Source of the DNA: Vicinamibacteraceae bacterium
GTDB lineage: Bacteria > Planctomycetota > Phycisphaerae > Phycisphaerales > UBA5793
Assembly (NCBI GenBank): GCA_011525805.1
Contig: WYBR01000114.1
Coordinates: forward strand, 1 to 64,000
Reading direction: 5' to 3'
Length of the DNA stretch: 64,000 nucleotides
In this document: positions 3,366-22,876 of the stretch, in pieces
Layout: each line of letters starts with the position of its first letter
Position numbering within the stretch: the first letter of the stretch is position 1
The notes under the pieces: model-generated
Database searches by the model: none
The model's input: only the letters and a program-made list of their open reading frames with translations
What the model was told of the DNA's origin: nothing
Program-made: the position numbers and the translations under genes

Positions 3366-4805
3366 ATGGGGCAGCACTCCGCCCAGGCCGAACTCCAGGT
3401 CATCGTTGCAAAGGACGCCCAGTCCGCCGAGTTGTCGATTCCCCCCAACCTCAGCGCCGAGCAGATGACCGTCGAAGCGCTCACCGCGGCCCTTCAGACC
3501 GCGCAGGTCGAAATCACCCCCGCCGTCACCGAAGCCCTCGAACGCATCGCCTCCGAGCCGCGCTGCGAGTCTCCTCCCTGCCGCGTCGTCGTCGCGCGCG
3601 CCACGCCGCCGGTGCATGGCGTGGACGGGCGCGTCGAATGGCTCGTCGATGAAGGAAGCCCGGCGCCCGTCGACGAACACGGCAACATCTGCTTCTACGA
3701 GCAGTCCGCCTTCACGATGGTCACGGCCGGCCAGGTGCTCGGCCGCGTCGTGCCGCCGACGCAGGGCGTCGAAGGCCGCGACGTCTTTGGCAAGCCCATC
3801 GCGGCCAAGAACGGCCAGCCCGCCGACCCCAAACTTGACGAGACCATCGCCCACAACGAGAACGCCGATCTCGTGGCTCAGATCGCCGGCGTCTTCACAC
3901 GCAAGGGGCCCAAGCCCACCATCCGCGAACTGCTCGAAGTGCAGGGGTGCGTCGACTTCTCCACCGGGAACATCAACTTCGACGGCGAAGTGTCCGTGCG
4001 CGGCGGCGTGCGCGACCTCTTCCGCGTCGTCGCCACCGGACGCATCGAGATACGCGGCCTCGTCGAGGCGGCGACCGTTGAGTGTGAAGGCGACCTCATC
4101 CTCGCCGGCGGCATGGCCGGTCGCGAGCACGGACTCGTCCGCGCCGGCGGAAGCGTCACCGCACGCCACCTCAGCGCTTCGCGCCTCATCGTCCGCGGCG
4201 ATCTCAACATCGACAAGGAGATGATGGGCTGCCACGCCACCGTCAGCGGCCGCGTCCTGTGCCCAAAGGGATCGATCCTCGGCGGACGCCTCGTCTGCTC
4301 GCGCGAGTGGAACGTCGCCGTCTTCGGCAGCCAGGCCGGCGTCGAGACCATCATCGAACTCGGCTCGCTTCCCCTCCTCCGCGCCCGCGTCACCAAACTC
4401 GACGACGTCATCGACCAGCACCTGCACGTCCTGCGCACCCTCGTCGGCGAGCGCGAGGCGGTCGCGAGGCAGAGCGCCCGGCCCGGCTCGCGCGTCGGCG
4501 AACGCCTCCGCGCCGTCACCGCGGAGATGCACCGCGTCAACGAGGAACTCAAGGCCGCCCGCCACGAGCGCGAAGAGGCCGAGGCGCTCATCGCCAACCT
4601 CAAGGTCTTCACCGGCACCGTCACCAAATGCCTGCACGCCGGCACCATTTTCGCCGTCGGCCGGCGCCTGCTGCGCGTCTACATGGATGTGCTCGGCCCG
4701 CTGCAGATCACGGTGGCGGAGAGCGGCCAGATTCTCGTGCATCCCGAAGACGCCGCCGCCATCCCGCTCGACAAGATTGCCCGCCCCTTCGGCCTCGCGG
4801 CGTGA
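3366..4805 (+). CDS. FapA-family (DUF342) protein
   Basis: A 479-residue protein of the DUF342/FapA family ('flagellar assembly protein A' in databases). The diagnostic stretch is PPVHGVDGRVEW near residue 79 and PPTQGVEGRDVFGKPI near 132, followed by a parallel beta-helix-like run of V/I/G-rich repeats (about 200-345). A charged helical segment follows (about 360-430, with a coiled-coil-like EELKAARHEREEAEAL), then a short terminal sheet. The start was set at ATG 3366 with AAGGG upstream; an earlier in-frame ATG at 3297 would add 23 residues unlike the family. The family has roles in flagellar and cell-surface assembly, but no flagellar gene is nearby, so the role here is open. Confidence 0.85.
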   Translation: MGQHSAQAELQVIVAKDAQSAELSIPPNLSAEQMTVEALTAALQTAQVEITPAVTEALERIASEPRCESPPCRVVVARATPPVHGVDGRVEWLVDEGSPAPVDEHGNICFYEQSAFTMVTAGQVLGRVVPPTQGVEGRDVFGKPIAAKNGQPADPKLDETIAHNENADLVAQIAGVFTRKGPKPTIRELLEVQGCVDFSTGNINFDGEVSVRGGVRDLFRVVATGRIEIRGLVEAATVECEGDLILAGGMAGREHGLVRAGGSVTARHLSASRLIVRGDLNIDKEMMGCHATVSGRVLCPKGSILGGRLVCSREWNVAVFGSQAGVETIIELGSLPLLRARVTKLDDVIDQHLHVLRTLVGEREAVARQSARPGSRVGERLRAVTAEMHRVNEELKAARHEREEAEALIANLKVFTGTVTKCLHAGTIFAVGRRLLRVYMDVLGPLQITVAESGQILVHPEDAAAIPLDKIARPFGLAA

Positions 4806-18057: not shown

Positions 18058-18612
18058 ATGAGCGGAAGAGTCGGACATCGCAAACGGTTGGTTTGCGTAA
18101 GCGCCGCCAATCTTCGCCAGAATCACCTCTACCTGACCGGGCATGCGGATTTCTTCCCGGCTGAAGCCTTTGGTCCCTCGTCGAGCAGAGAAGGCGCAGG
18201 CAAAGCAGTGCGATTGGATGTGTAAGGGCTCGCGGAACCCGTTTTCACGGACATTCCTACGGACGCGCGAACAGGGAAACCGCGAAAGCTCTTTCGCAAA
18301 CGCGCGTGGGTCGGTGAGTTCTTCGCACGGCACGGAATCAAGGCCGGCGACACAATCGCCATCGAGCGGATCGGCGCACGACGATTCAGGGTGCTCCTTT
18401 TCGATGCGAAGGAACAGCGGCAATGCCCCACGACGTTTGACTTTTCACGCGAACCCGAAGGCGACGGCCCGACGATTATTGAGCTCTTCGCCGGATGCGG
18501 AGGCATGGCGCTTGGTTTCAAGGACGCGGGATTCCGCACGGTCCTCGCCAACGAATGGAACCGGGACGCTTGCGACAGCCTTCAAGCCTCGGCACTCGTC
18601 ACGGCCGCGTAG
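18058..18612 (+). pseudogene. Broken DNA cytosine-5 methyltransferase with N-terminal B3-like domain
   Basis: From ATG 18058 the frame reads a plant-B3/EcoRII-N-like DNA-binding domain: ANLRQNHLYLTGHADFFPAE, then after an in-frame TAA at 18223-18225 VFTDIPTD, KLFRKRAWVGEFFARHGIKA and GDTIAIERI. This joins directly to motif I of a C5 methyltransferase, IIELFAGCGGMALGFKDAGF followed by ANEWNRDA. A TAG at 18610-18612 ends it about 30 residues later. The catalytic PCQ motif and all other MTase motifs are missing. So the gene carries one nonsense codon and has lost roughly the last three quarters of the enzyme. It is in the same frame as the HNH gene downstream. Confidence 0.85.
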
Positions 18613-18621
18613 AAAACTCCC

Positions 18622-19395
18622 GTGATTGTACGGCCCGCCAACGACGGTGGACTTTGGGCGCGTGAAGAATTGATTCTCGTGTTTGAATTGTACTGTCGCA
18701 TCCCTTTTCCGCGTACTAAGGCGACCGACCCACGTGTGAAAGAACTCGCCTCCCTTCTCCAACGCATGCCAGCCTCCGTCGCCCGCACACTCGGCAACTT
18801 CGGGGCCTTCGACCCGCAACTCGCAGCCCGCAACATCTCAGGCCTCACGCATGGAAGCAAACTCGACAAGGCCATCTGGGACGAGTTTCATGCTGACTGG
18901 AACGGGCTGAGCGTTCGCGCCTACGACCTCCGCCGTGAGCACGCGCCAGTAGAGCGTGCAGATGCTCTGCTTGCTCCGCCGACTGGTCCATCGGAGACGA
19001 TCGTCACTGTGAAACAGCGATTGCACCAGGCGTTCTTCCGCGATGCCGTCATCAGCAGTTACAACACCCGCTGTTGCGTCACCGGGATTCCGATCGTGGA
19101 GTGCCTGATCGCGGGGCACATCGTTCCGTGGAGCGTGGACGAACACCGGCGCGCCGACCCGACCAACGGCGTATGCATGTCGGCCACCTTCGATCGCCTG
19201 TTCGATTGCGGCCTCATCACGATCGAGGAGGATCTGACGCTGTGCGTCAGCGGGCGCGTTCGCAAACTGAAGGACCAAGCCGTCGCCGACATCGTCGCGG
19301 CCCGGCACGGCCAGAAGATCATCCTGCCGACACGCTTCTATCCCGATCCCACGTGCCTGCGCTGGCACCGGGATAATCGCTTTCAAGCCGCGTAG
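18622..19395 (+). CDS. HNH endonuclease, restriction-type
   Basis: A 257-residue protein starting at GTG 18622 without a clear ribosome-binding site. Residues 11-95 (WAREELILVFELYCRIPF... SVARTLGNFGAFDPQL...) match the helical N-terminal region often seen on HNH nucleases encoded next to cytosine methyltransferases. The nuclease part has CC at 151-152, AGHIVPW (164-170), NGVCMS (182-187) and FDRLFDCGLIT. The last metal position carries FD rather than HD, which occurs in some members, so activity is uncertain. It lies ten bases after the methyltransferase remnant, in the same frame. Presumably the restriction half of a system whose methylase is gone. Confidence 0.8.
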   Translation: MIVRPANDGGLWAREELILVFELYCRIPFPRTKATDPRVKELASLLQRMPASVARTLGNFGAFDPQLAARNISGLTHGSKLDKAIWDEFHADWNGLSVRAYDLRREHAPVERADALLAPPTGPSETIVTVKQRLHQAFFRDAVISSYNTRCCVTGIPIVECLIAGHIVPWSVDEHRRADPTNGVCMSATFDRLFDCGLITIEEDLTLCVSGRVRKLKDQAVADIVAARHGQKIILPTRFYPDPTCLRWHRDNRFQAA

Positions 19396-19411
19396 TCAGG
19401 AGTAACACCCC

Positions 19412-19828
19412 ATGCAGACTTTGCCCAACGCACACATTGATGAACTCGCCAAATCCTGTGTACACAATGTGGGCGACATCTTCTGGGGTTACGACGAACG
19501 GCGCGATGCGCCCCTCGGATTCTGCGAGCCCCGACGCCTTGCAGCCGAGTCGGTGGCGGCGACATTGCACGAGTTTGCCTTGACCTTGGAGTCGAACCCG
19601 ATTTACACGAGCTCACTCCGGCTGGAGTATCGGGAGATCATCCGCCGGATTAGGGGCATCTCAGACGATCAGCAAATCATTTCGATGCTGATCGAGGAAG
19701 CGGCCTGGACCGATCGAGGGGCACATGTCGTGTTGCAACTCGCCAAGTATTACGGAACGAGTATCCTGCGCAACGCGCTCGCACTAGCGGAGGCGATGGA
19801 TATCGAGGACGGCGAAGCCGGACTCTGA
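19412..19828 (+). CDS. Island protein of unknown function
   Basis: A 138-residue protein with AGGAG nine bases before ATG 19412, starting 16 bases after the HNH stop, so the two are likely cotranscribed. It is acidic and mostly helical (for example RLAAESVAATLHEFALTLES and DDQQIISMLIEEAAW), with no membrane segment. I do not recognise the family. Its position between a nuclease and a Vsr remnant makes a role in the restriction system or its control possible, but nothing in the sequence shows this. Confidence 0.65.
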   Translation: MQTLPNAHIDELAKSCVHNVGDIFWGYDERRDAPLGFCEPRRLAAESVAATLHEFALTLESNPIYTSSLRLEYREIIRRIRGISDDQQIISMLIEEAAWTDRGAHVVLQLAKYYGTSILRNALALAEAMDIEDGEAGL

Positions 19829-19861
19829 TTCGGCCCGAAACGCCCCAACGGGGCGCCGGGG

Positions 19862-19921
19862 TGTAGCCACGGGTGGAGCCGCAGCGCGGCCAAGCCCGCA
19901 GACGCGCAACCCGTGGAAAGT
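19862..19921 (+). repeat. REP copy 1 (left of transposase)
   Basis: TGTAGCCACGGGTGGAGC opens and ACCCGTGG closes a hairpin of about 50 bases. The same unit occurs at 20504-20560 (inverted), 28617-28660 and 28808-28863 (inverted). Confidence 0.85.
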
Positions 19922-19989
19922 GTGCCCTCCTACCCTCTTCCCGCCCCGACGGGGCGGAGGAAACGCGCGGCACACCGAAGGGCCCCGAC

Positions 19990-20442
19990 ATGCCAGGCAC
20001 TTACTCCCAACTCCTGCTCCACATTGTCTTCTCCACGAAGGGCCGCGCACCGTGGATTACGGCCGAGATCGCGGATCGCCTTTACCCATACATCGGCGGC
20101 ATCGTTCGGGCCGAGAAGGGCATGCTCTACGACATCGGCGGCATCGAAGACCACGTGCATCTGTACCTTCGCTGGCGGCCTGACGGCAGCATTTCGGACC
20201 TGATGCGCACAGTCAAATCGCGCTCCTCAAAGTGGGTCCACGACACACTCCCAGCCCTCAGCGCATTTGCGTGGCAGGAAGGATACTCGGTTTTCTCCGT
20301 CAGCAAATCACAGGAGGGCGCGGTCAAGGCGTACATCGCTGCGCAGCACGAGCGTCACAAAAGGGAAGATTTCAGGACCGAGTTGCTTCGAATGCTCCGG
20401 CTGCACGAGATTGAGTTCGACGAGCGGTTCGTGTTCGACTGA
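19990..20442 (+). CDS. IS200/IS605-family tyrosine transposase, REP-associated (TnpA_REP)
   Basis: A 150-residue Y1 HUH transposase. The metal-binding HVH is at 55-57 in GIEDHVHLYL and the catalytic tyrosine is Y115 in KAYIAAQHERH. MPGTYSQLLLHIVFSTKGR is a typical start for IS200-like transposases; an upstream in-frame ATG at 19873 falls inside the REP and is rejected. Such enzymes cut and rejoin single-stranded DNA at REP hairpins. The gene looks intact, so it may still act on the other REP pair at 28.6-28.9 kb. Confidence 0.92.
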   Translation: MPGTYSQLLLHIVFSTKGRAPWITAEIADRLYPYIGGIVRAEKGMLYDIGGIEDHVHLYLRWRPDGSISDLMRTVKSRSSKWVHDTLPALSAFAWQEGYSVFSVSKSQEGAVKAYIAAQHERHKREDFRTELLRMLRLHEIEFDERFVFD

Positions 20443-20503
20443 TCCAGCGCGCAACTGGTCGCTTCCTCTGCCCCTTCGGGGCAGGATCGATAGACACACC
20501 GCG

Positions 20504-20560
20504 TTCCACGGGTTGCGCTTCGCCCGTGAGGACGCGGCTGCGCTCCACCCGTGGCTACAC
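20504..20560 (-). repeat. REP copy 2 (right of transposase, inverted)
   Basis: Inverted copy of the REP at 19862: TTCCACGGGTTGCGC at the left and CTCCACCCGTGGCTACAC at the right. Confidence 0.85.
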
Positions 20561-20583
20561 TCCGTCGTCCCTTGGGGACGAAG

Positions 20584-20900
20584 ATATCGTGTTGCCGCGC
20601 CTTCGGGCTGTTGTTCTGATTCACGGCTGCTTCTGGCACCGGTACTCATGCGAGCGAGGCCGAAGCGAGCCTTCGACTCGGCGGGTATTTTGGCGAGCGA
20701 AGTTCGCGGGCAACGTGCAGCGCGACAAGCGAGCTTTGCGCGCGCTGCGCCGTGCGGGGTGGCGCGTGCTGGTAGTGTGGGAGTGCCAGACGCGCGATGT
20801 GGATCGGCTCCGCACGAGGCTGTCGCGGTTCCTTTCCGCAAAGCCGAAAGTCCGCCCCCGACAAGGCTGGAGGAGCAGACTCGAATACAGCCGATCTTGA
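20584..20900 (+). pseudogene. vsr: Vsr mismatch endonuclease, N-terminus lost
   Basis: The frame reads DIVLPRLRAVVLIHGCFWH, then a zinc-ligand-like HRYSC, FWRAKFAGNVQRDKRALRAL and GWRVLVVWEC. These match the catalytic and zinc-binding half of Vsr, which nicks T:G mismatches arising from deaminated 5-methylcytosine. The first 50 or so residues are missing and are replaced by the right REP of the IS200-type element. An ATG inside the REP (20526) could give a 124-residue hybrid, but the family N-terminus is gone. Vsr genes accompany C5 methyltransferases, which fits the remnant at 18058. Confidence 0.8.
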
Positions 20901-21213: not shown

Positions 21214-21490
21214 CTGATCCCAACCTGCACACTCCCCTCGGTGCTCTCTGTGTTCTCTGTGGTGAGATGCTTCTCCTGGAGCCCTTGTGTGTTGGCGGTG
21301 AGACTTTTCTGCCTGATGAATCCGGACCGCTCCCTCACGGTCGGGGCTCGGATTGATCCCAATCTCCACACGTCTCTCGGTGCTCTCTGTGTTCTCCGTG
21401 GTGAGATGCTTTTCCTGGAGCCTTTGTGTTTTGGGGGTGGGACTCCTCGGCCTGGCAAAGCCGGACCGCTCCCTCACGGTCGGGGCTCGG
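21214..21490. repeat. Direct duplication of about 138 bp
   Basis: 21214-21351 and 21352-21490 are similar units. Each contains CGGTGCTCTCTGTGTTCTC, GTGGTGAGATGCTT, CCTGGAGCC and ends in CGGACCGCTCCCTCACGG. The first part is one arm of the 'CACCACGAAGG' inverted-repeat family found elsewhere in the window. Confidence 0.75.
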
Positions 21491-21772
21491 TTTGATGCCG
21501 AGAGAGCCGGACCGCTCCCTCACGGTCGGGGCTCGGTTTGATGCCGAGAGAGCCGGACCGCTCCCTCACGGTCGGGGCTCGGATTGATGCCGAGAGGGCC
21601 GGACCGCTCCCTTACGGTCGGGGTTCGGATTGAGCGTGGAAAGCCGGACCGCTCCCTTACGGTCGGGGTTCGGATTGAGCGTGGAAAGCCGGACCGCTCC
21701 CTTACGGTCGGGGTTCGGATTGAGCGTGGAAAGCCGGACCGCTCCCTCACGGTCGGGGCTCGGTTTGATGTG
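21460..21772. repeat. Tandem array of seven 45-46 bp units
   Basis: Units begin GCCGGACCGCTCCCT(C/T)ACGG at 21460, 21506, 21552, 21598, 21643, 21688 and 21733. The period is 46 bp in the first four units and 45 bp afterwards. Each unit carries GACCG...CGGTC as a short inverted repeat. An eighth copy of the core is at 21322. The array ends 55 bases before the threonine aldolase start, and no open frame in it is credible. Confidence 0.9.
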
Positions 21773-21826: not shown

Positions 21827-22876
21827 ATGGGAACTGAAGCGATCGATCTTCGCAGCGATACGGTGACCAAGCCGACGGCGGCGATGCGCGAGGTGATGGC
21901 GCGGGCGGAGGTCGGCGACGACGTGCTCGGCGACGAGCCGACCGTGCTGCGCCTCCAGGAGAAGTCGGCGAACCTCCTGGGCAAGGACGACGCGGTGTAC
22001 GTCCCCTCGGGCACCATGGCGAACCTCTGCGCCATCTGTTCGCAGACGCATCACGGCGATGAGATCATCGCGCACAACGAGAGCCATTTTTATTTTTACG
22101 AGACGGGCGGGTTCGCCGCGGTCGCGGGCTGTTCGGTGCGCTTTGTGGCGGGCAAGCGGGGGCTGTTCGGGCCGGAGGTGATCGAGCCGAACATCCGCCC
22201 GACGCAGATTCACTTCCCGCGCACGCGGCTGCTGGTGATTGAGAACACGCACAACCGCGGAGGCGGGTCGATCTGGCCGGTGGCGCAGGTGAAGGCGGTG
22301 GCGGACCGGGCGCACGAACTGGGCCTGCGCGTGCACATGGACGGCGCGCGTCTCCTGAACGCGTGCGTGGCGACGGGACTTGATCCGCGCGAGTACACGC
22401 AGCACGTGGATTCGGTCTCGATGTGCTTTTCGAAGGGGCTGGGGGCGCCGGTCGGGTCGATCCTCGCGGGCGACCAGGAGATGATCCAGAAGGCGCACCG
22501 GTTCCGCAAGATGCTCGGAGGGACGATGCGGCAGTCGGGCGTCATCGCGGCGGCGGCGATCTATGCGCTGGACCATCACGTCAAGCGTCTGGCCGAGGAC
22601 CACGCGAACGCGAAGCGCTTCGCGGAGATTCTCAGCAAAACGCCGGGCGTCACGATCGACCTGGGCGAAGTCGAGACGAACATGGCGTTTTTCGACATTG
22701 ACGCGCAGTGGGGCAACGGGAAGAAGTTTGCGCGCGTCCTGGAGCGCGAGGGAGTGCGGATGTTTGCGACGGGGCCGCAGCGGCTGAGGGCGGTGTTCCA
22801 TCTGGAGATTTCGGCGGAGCAGGCGGTCCGCGCGGCGGAGATCGTCGCCCGCGTGATGCAGCGGGTTCCCGCGTGA
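21827..22876 (+). CDS. ltaE: L-threonine aldolase (low-specificity type)
   Basis: A 349-residue PLP enzyme cleaving threonine or allo-threonine to glycine and acetaldehyde. It opens with the family hallmark AIDLRSDTVTKPTAAMREVM. The PLP lysine is K203 in FSKGLGAPVGS, the cofactor aspartate is in HMDGAR (D172), and DDVLGDEPTV and YVPSGTMAN are typical. The start is ATG 21827, with GGGGGAGG a little far upstream (12 nt). A longer frame running back through the repeat array gives a repetitive, unrelated N-terminus and is rejected. The next gene starts three bases after the stop. Confidence 0.95.
   Translation: MGTEAIDLRSDTVTKPTAAMREVMARAEVGDDVLGDEPTVLRLQEKSANLLGKDDAVYVPSGTMANLCAICSQTHHGDEIIAHNESHFYFYETGGFAAVAGCSVRFVAGKRGLFGPEVIEPNIRPTQIHFPRTRLLVIENTHNRGGGSIWPVAQVKAVADRAHELGLRVHMDGARLLNACVATGLDPREYTQHVDSVSMCFSKGLGAPVGSILAGDQEMIQKAHRFRKMLGGTMRQSGVIAAAAIYALDHHVKRLAEDHANAKRFAEILSKTPGVTIDLGEVETNMAFFDIDAQWGNGKKFARVLEREGVRMFATGPQRLRAVFHLEISAEQAVRAAEIVARVMQRVPA

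Follow-up and report, generated by a model that had tools for sequence, protein, structure and literature searches.

An HNH nuclease cassette in the nuclease slot of a broken 5-methylcytosine restriction-modification operon from Phycisphaerae

We analysed a stretch of 64,000 nucleotides (nt) from a Vicinamibacteraceae bacterium (contig WYBR01000114.1, positions 1 to 64,000 of the forward strand; hereafter the window), part of a 138-contig assembly (GCA_011525805.1, genome G000), and in it the wreck of a 5-methylcytosine (5mC) restriction-modification (R-M) operon at 18058-20900. We read this wreck as what is left of a displaced operon on either side of a conserved two-gene cassette, HNH1-UNK. 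The ancestral operon would have encoded a 5mC methyltransferase (MTase) with a B3-like domain, a type II nuclease and Vsr. The foreign cassette would have taken the nuclease slot, and this takeover would have removed the 3' part of the MTase gene together with the original nuclease gene. A Y1 transposase flanked by repetitive extragenic palindromic (REP) sequences would then have settled behind UNK, and at the window the flanking loss would have extended into vsr. HNH1 may be an MTase-independent nuclease that, like PcaRCII of Pectobacterium carotovorum, cuts DNA with 5mC in certain contexts; unmodified host DNA would then be safe, and the cassette would be kept only where the resident MTase making that mark is dead. 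We assign a probability of roughly 0.5 to this explanation as a whole, the in-place exchange of a 5mC R-M operon for an MTase-independent, perhaps 5mC-dependent nuclease. Its parts differ in strength: displacement of the operon by HNH1-UNK is very probable, and for 5mC-dependent action of HNH1 the chances look about even. The loss of R-M operons is generally considered difficult, since a host without the methylase is left open to attack by its own nuclease, and we agree with an initial reading of the letters (the sequence-only reading) that a surviving nuclease poses the question of how the host tolerates it. Here the methylase was lost repeatedly, each time with one particular nuclease family at the cut. 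This natural takeover series makes post-segregational killing, epigenetic conflict and defence exchange testable, given an operon that is still intact, a locus that has been taken over and a single enzyme.

All parts of the wreck lie on the forward strand. The N-terminal remnant of the cytosine-5 methylase (18058-18612) is one frame of 184 residues, interrupted once by a TAA at codon 56 (18223-18225), where the nearest relative, L019, has a sense codon. It holds a 137-residue domain and motif I, and as far as residue 178 it is homologous to intact MTases of 480 aa; it is 87% identical to residues 1-178 of L145. The PF00145 match covers just residues 139-177, at positions 2-40 of the 324 in the profile, and of motifs I to X of a complete enzyme, PCQ and everything later are gone, just as the sequence-only reading had described. 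That reading had also called the N-terminal domain B3-like. The domain itself is real and conserved, but the B3 label is weak: PF02362 matches with E 0.096, below the gathering score, the best E among relatives is 0.05 (2 of 13 match), and no PDB profile matched at E <= 1. MTase homology stops 30 nt ahead of the HNH1 start (left junction, 18592-18621). HNH1 (18622-19395), taken earlier for a full-length HNH nuclease, is indeed so: it has no stop, and it matches PF13391 and the PADLOC HNH model PDLC04132 (E 6e-75). It is followed by UNK (19412-19828), a partner of 138 aa whose conserved core is the C-terminal ~75 residues. Left REP-type repeats (19841-19965) begin 12 nt after the UNK stop, and the Y1 (IS200-type) transposase gene (19990-20442) and right REP-type repeats (20460-20580) come next. 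The C-terminal part of vsr (20583-20900) is flush with the right REP end and starts at about residue 51 (DIVLPR); of the Vsr domain, only the part from about residue 48-51 onward (profile position 44-48 on) remains. A conventional nuclease of the kinds found in relatives, whole or in pieces (the HNH2 and L147 types described below), had no match downstream in the window.

The longest remnant, L027, served as query for intact relatives of the operon in 400 genomes from the order. Complete B3-MTase relatives are about 480 aa long, and their genes are followed first by a nuclease slot and then by Vsr. PADLOC classes some of the slot genes as type II restriction enzymes, among them HNH2 of L116, an HNH protein of 192 aa, and an enzyme of 297 aa in L147; the slot of L149 holds a 313-aa HNH protein with weak matches to type IV and type II models. 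HNH1 was found in the slot in 0 of 23 complete B3-MTase operons, one of which (L229) is cut by a contig end at the slot. To these hits were added searches with profile A3, the methylase N-terminal domain, in genomes of the class (397) and of the phylum (392), so the survey was ascertained by the methylase and not by HNH1. Fifty-two loci were tabulated, repeats of genome-contig loci (e.g. L213 = L024) being counted once, and 43 were kept once two at contig ends and seven that lacked an MTase match had been set aside. Where HNH1 occupied the slot, the MTase was incomplete in every case (16/16); where it did not, the MTase was complete in 23 of 27, the other four being L152, L153, L218 and L223 (Fisher p 1.8e-8, for loci that are not independent events). 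Without L229, complete MTases number 22 of 26 and p is 2.9e-8. In L233 a distant, partial match to HNH1 lies past Vsr, outside the slot.

Because the loci are not independent events, a tree test was used. On a B3 tree of 28 rows, the HNH1 label changes six times (5-95% of bootstraps, 6-8), and at least three changes are forced by starred branches. A single clade of HNH1-bearing loci was rejected with an approximately unbiased (AU) test p of 3.6e-52, for a group defined by gene content and after a smaller version of the test had been seen; that version, with 10 rows, gave 6e-5 for protein and 2e-4 for DNA. HNH1-bearing loci are thus polyphyletic on the B3 tree. Shuffled labels needed 8.9 changes on average against the six observed, and therefore the HNH1 label is also clustered. 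The tree of HNH1 itself left the Phycisphaerae rows unresolved, so that congruence with the B3 tree is not judgeable from these rows.

A scan of genome contigs for HNH1 found 66 loci. In 14 of them (L019-L032), all labelled Planctomycetota or classes within it, HNH1 is 65-83% identical to that of the window. Counting the window, UNK stands behind HNH1 in 13 of these 15 loci (L030 ends 121 nt after the HNH1 match, and L032 has none), and a 5' piece of the B3-MTase gene stands directly before HNH1 in 10 of 15, with differing end points. Pieces of HNH2 or Vsr follow UNK or the transposase in the B3-MTase/HNH1 loci. Thus the order B3-MTase, HNH, UNK homologue, Vsr, which the sequence-only reading proposed to seek in intact relatives, does exist, but only with a truncated MTase, and its caveat that the pieces might never occur together in relatives is answered by their repeated co-occurrence. 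Its claim of one broken system holds for the 5mC methylase and Vsr, an operon that is broken here, but is not supported for HNH1 as the system's own nuclease, since complete operons carry other nucleases. Left breakpoints were found at MTase residues about 35-53, 39, 55, 82, 107, 130, 142-153, 178-181, 297 and 417; in the majority of the 10 measured loci the MTase piece ends about 12-50 nt short of HNH1. On the right, HNH2 resumes at residue 44-47, 2-11 nt past the UNK stop, in L024, L025 and L027, and Vsr resumes at residue 20, 9 nt past it, in L026; in five loci with a transposase, HNH2 or Vsr picks up again at a near-constant distance, 131-161 nt past the transposase stop, and at four different points of these genes. 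The ends of HNH1-UNK are therefore sharp, with flanks that have been eroded to different depths. The most telling single locus is L227, where the MTase is open to residue 417 and stops before motif X, and HNH1, the last third of an L147-type nuclease and an intact Vsr follow. It is therefore a replacement of the same kind in another operon background. In L217, from a different B3 clade, the cut lies almost at the codon where L019 is cut. Other branches repeat the picture in part: in L035 (titled Deltaproteobacteria) the MTase is cut beyond its first half and its stop is overlapped by HNH1, in L037 (Hydrogenedentota) an MTase cut early lies beside HNH1, in L059 a fused-type MTase with a stop and a frameshift precedes an open HNH1, and in L165 (N. 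gonorrhoeae) Vsr, an MTase cut before PCQ and a short frame are followed by an HNH1 relative at 3992-4741.

Flush cassette ends between varied flanks would also be expected if HNH1-UNK were a mobile or homing-like cassette, perhaps Y1-aided, that lands in expendable defence operons; loss of the MTase would then be mechanical and say nothing about methylation dependence. Y1 transposases near the HNH1-slot loci fit this account, as does the occurrence of HNH1 in unrelated contexts. We nevertheless regard it as unlikely: no terminal repeats or target duplications of HNH1-UNK were seen, though no systematic search was made for them, 7 of the 16 loci have no transposase, and the repeated choice of the same slot needs explaining. 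HNH1 had matches at two loci in viral contigs and in eight phage records; 127 plasmid records had a match, only three of them covering at least 80% of HNH1.

The transposase itself passes the curated cut-off for Y1_Tnp/IS200 (IS200 equivalog model, 72.3 bits against a cut-off of 55). Inverted REP arms surround it at 19841-19879/20542-20580 and 19939-19965/20460-20486, and similar repeats occur elsewhere in the genome. It is thus a Y1 transposase gene flanked by REPs, as REP-associated tyrosine transposases (RAYTs) are, but it can only be called RAYT-like, because the NCBIfam REP-tyrosine-transposase model NF047646 scores 16.9 of 80 bits while the IS200 equivalog passes. The element and the C-terminal part of Vsr lie where the sequence-only reading had placed them. 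Of the 16 HNH1-slot loci, 9 have a Y1 transposase no more than 4.5 kb away, against 0 of 23 complete operons; among loci whose sequence runs for 2.9 kb or more past the B3 domain, the counts are 8 of 11 and 0 of 19. Such insertions may merely be tolerated by a dying operon. At L019, L021, L023, L028 and the window (19841-20580), the REP-flanked transposase is behind UNK in every case, and its right flank resumes at four different positions of HNH2 or Vsr, as if deletions start at its right end. L219 carries a Y1 transposase of another family directly behind HNH1, at 1249-1740 from the B3 start.

The ratio of nonsynonymous to synonymous differences (pN/pS) over the B3 domain is 0.09-0.11 when the window and L019 remnants are compared with each other (0.09) and with L145. 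A stand-alone function of the remnant, which such low values could suggest, was rejected, since the dead catalytic part of L027 (residues 138-297) is equally conserved: its pN/pS against complete MTases is 0.13-0.17, and that among complete pairs is 0.10-0.16. Recent truncation explains both low values, and the methylase breaks appear to be recent relative to the divergence of the loci. This bears on a further possibility, that HNH1 was the cognate enzyme of the B3-MTase in an older operon, with the MTase recently lost in every sampled lineage and the nuclease inactive, silent or restrained by UNK. Remnants without long decay imply MTases that were functional until recently, and in six HNH1 relatives (L052, L056, L058, L063, L072 and L077) a single frame of about 680-700 aa joins HNH1 to a complete cytosine MTase. 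Among the 16 loci, however, no complete B3-MTase stands beside HNH1; complete operons carry other nucleases, the active site of HNH1 and its constraint are kept, and the HNH1-bearing loci are polyphyletic. A cognate origin is thus very unlikely. The absence of any complete MTase-HNH1 pair among the 16 loci favours repeated separate events over a long-lived MTase-HNH1 operon.

HNH1 is under constraint, with a window-L019 pN/pS of 0.18. Its residues H166, N182, D191 and D195 correspond to H224, N241, D250 and D254 of VcaM4I, so that all four active-site residues are kept. In a structure model with a mean predicted local distance difference test (pLDDT) score of 90, a domain with helices at residues 14-26, 37-46 and 50-61 precedes the HNH_2 nuclease domain. 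Its closest VIA-align matches are two modification-dependent enzymes, VcaM4I with Z 13.5 across 130 residues and TagI with Z 12.6 across 109; the next row has Z 5.3. Residues 8-66 align weakly to spliceosomal chains, which we take to be those of the Myb-type protein Cef1. The same genome has a second HNH1 relative, 37% identical, on contig C48 (L155).

UNK matched none of the Pfam, NCBIfam and PADLOC families with a meaningful E-value, and no relatives of it were found in viral contigs, plasmids or phages. Its model has a mean pLDDT of 74 and a predicted template modelling score (pTM) of 0.43. The sequence-only reading placed UNK in the methylase system, perhaps as its controller or immunity factor; this is not supported, since HNH1 and UNK also occur together with no methylase beside them (e.g. 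L029, L031, L033, L038). UNK may instead act as a partner that sets the dosage or activity of HNH1. In 36 of the 66 loci, the gene directly behind HNH1 is a small one from any of four families unrelated to each other: UNK in 17 (counting tblastn matches), two others in 10 and 7, and a fourth in 2. The products are mostly acidic, the exceptions being one with pI 8.7 and a few near 6. One could therefore see in HNH1-UNK a nuclease-immunity pair resembling a toxin-antitoxin, with UNK as one of several unrelated small partners, and the 13 of 15 window-like loci with UNK agree with this. We judge it quite improbable, given that UNK is present without HNH1 nearby in several genomes, that nearly half of the 66 loci lack such a partner, and that no PDB entry matched the UNK model at E <= 0.001.

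Several observations weigh against the exchange that we favour, above all against its 5mC-dependent part. Contig C132 of the window's own genome (L174, 1862-3600) encodes an apparently intact cytosine MTase of 427-434 aa with an adjacent Vsr. A long-frame 5mC MTase is present in 12 of 30 genomes with a full HNH1 relative and in 69 of 370 without (odds ratio 2.9, p 0.009; two search listings taken as the same 400 genomes, their handles agreeing), which contradicts genome-wide exclusion of 5mC MTases by HNH1. In the wider HNH1 family (69 loci), in addition to the six fused genes, four loci have a complete MTase nearby and unfused (L036, L047, L055, L082); seven have a truncated catalytic fragment (window, L019, L027, L035, L037, L059, L165), and 52 have no catalytic match, seven of these with a B3-only piece. 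Broad 5mC dependence of HNH1 is thus disfavoured, and any such dependence would have to be specific to a sequence context or differ by family branch. Furthermore, the recently broken look of the remnants would also agree with a long-lived MTase-HNH1 operon whose MTase was lost not long ago, the N-terminal match of HNH1 to Myb-type chains is weak (Z about 4.3), and its homology to PcaRCII is putative. Finally, the window copy of HNH1 may be starting to fail, because it has a GTG start, a poor Shine-Dalgarno stretch and two changes at 60 columns that are >=90% conserved.

A more general form of the in-place exchange can be offered tentatively, and we think it rather doubtful: HNH1-UNK, often with the REP/Y1 transposase, would be a specialised mobile displacer of 5mC R-M operons that, on entering the nuclease slot, strips out the methylase and the old nuclease and installs a 5mC-dependent barrier against systems of the kind it has replaced, so that populations flip between methylating and anti-methyl defence at one locus.

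Two features lie apart from these arguments. The cytosine MTase at L174 has a helix-turn-helix (HTH) domain, overlaps a complete Vsr and has a 424-aa neighbour, which makes a second, apparently intact 5mC system in this genome. Downstream of the wreck, a tandem array of a 45-nt palindrome-bearing unit (21457-21770, about 7 copies, 94% matches) lies just before a gene starting near 21828; one other array of the unit is found elsewhere in the genome, on contig C1.

Literature searches found no published account of this arrangement, which is no proof of absence, and its closest counterparts each share some of its features. DpnI and DpnII are methyl-dependent and methyl-sensitive systems exchanged at one locus as clean cassettes. 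We know of no MTase fossils in these, whereas fossils remain at the HNH1 locus. In Neisseria, drg (dam replacing gene) encodes a methylation-dependent nuclease and is inserted in a methylase gene that it truncates (PMC4269198), so that, as at the HNH1 locus, a nuclease gene lies at a truncated methylase gene. The system differs in concerning GmeATC and dam instead of 5mC and in having a different nuclease, and the parts of that account at hand mention no Vsr, UNK or transposase. The NgoAXIII locus of N. gonorrhoeae has Vsr beside a truncated, inactive cytosine MTase (PMC6789123); judging from its gene content, L165 is probably this locus, with the HNH1 relative following Vsr and an MTase remnant of such a kind. 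NgoAXIII differs from the window locus in MTase type and gene order, and the excerpted description mentions no HNH gene. HNH1 shares its HNH domain fold and active-site residues with VcaM4I (6yex; PMC7897488) and TagI (6ghs; PMC6212794), which, as far as the available portions of these reports describe them, have EVE or SRA sensor domains in place of the three-helix domain. PcaRCII is a 5mC-dependent HNH enzyme with no MTase nearby that restricts CCNGG-methylated DNA; its N-terminus is described as three helices resembling TRF1, and its C-terminal half as VcaM4I/TagI-like (PMC8989522). By architecture, as given in this published description, HNH1 would be of the PcaRCII kind: both are HNH nucleases without an MTase of their own, with a three-helix N-terminus and a VcaM4I/TagI-like HNH domain, and both appear to be in conflict with a resident 5mC MTase. 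The two differ in how the conflict ends, since in the PcaRCII case, as described there, the MTase silences the nuclease gene through promoter methylation, whereas at the HNH1 locus the MTase gene is cut away.

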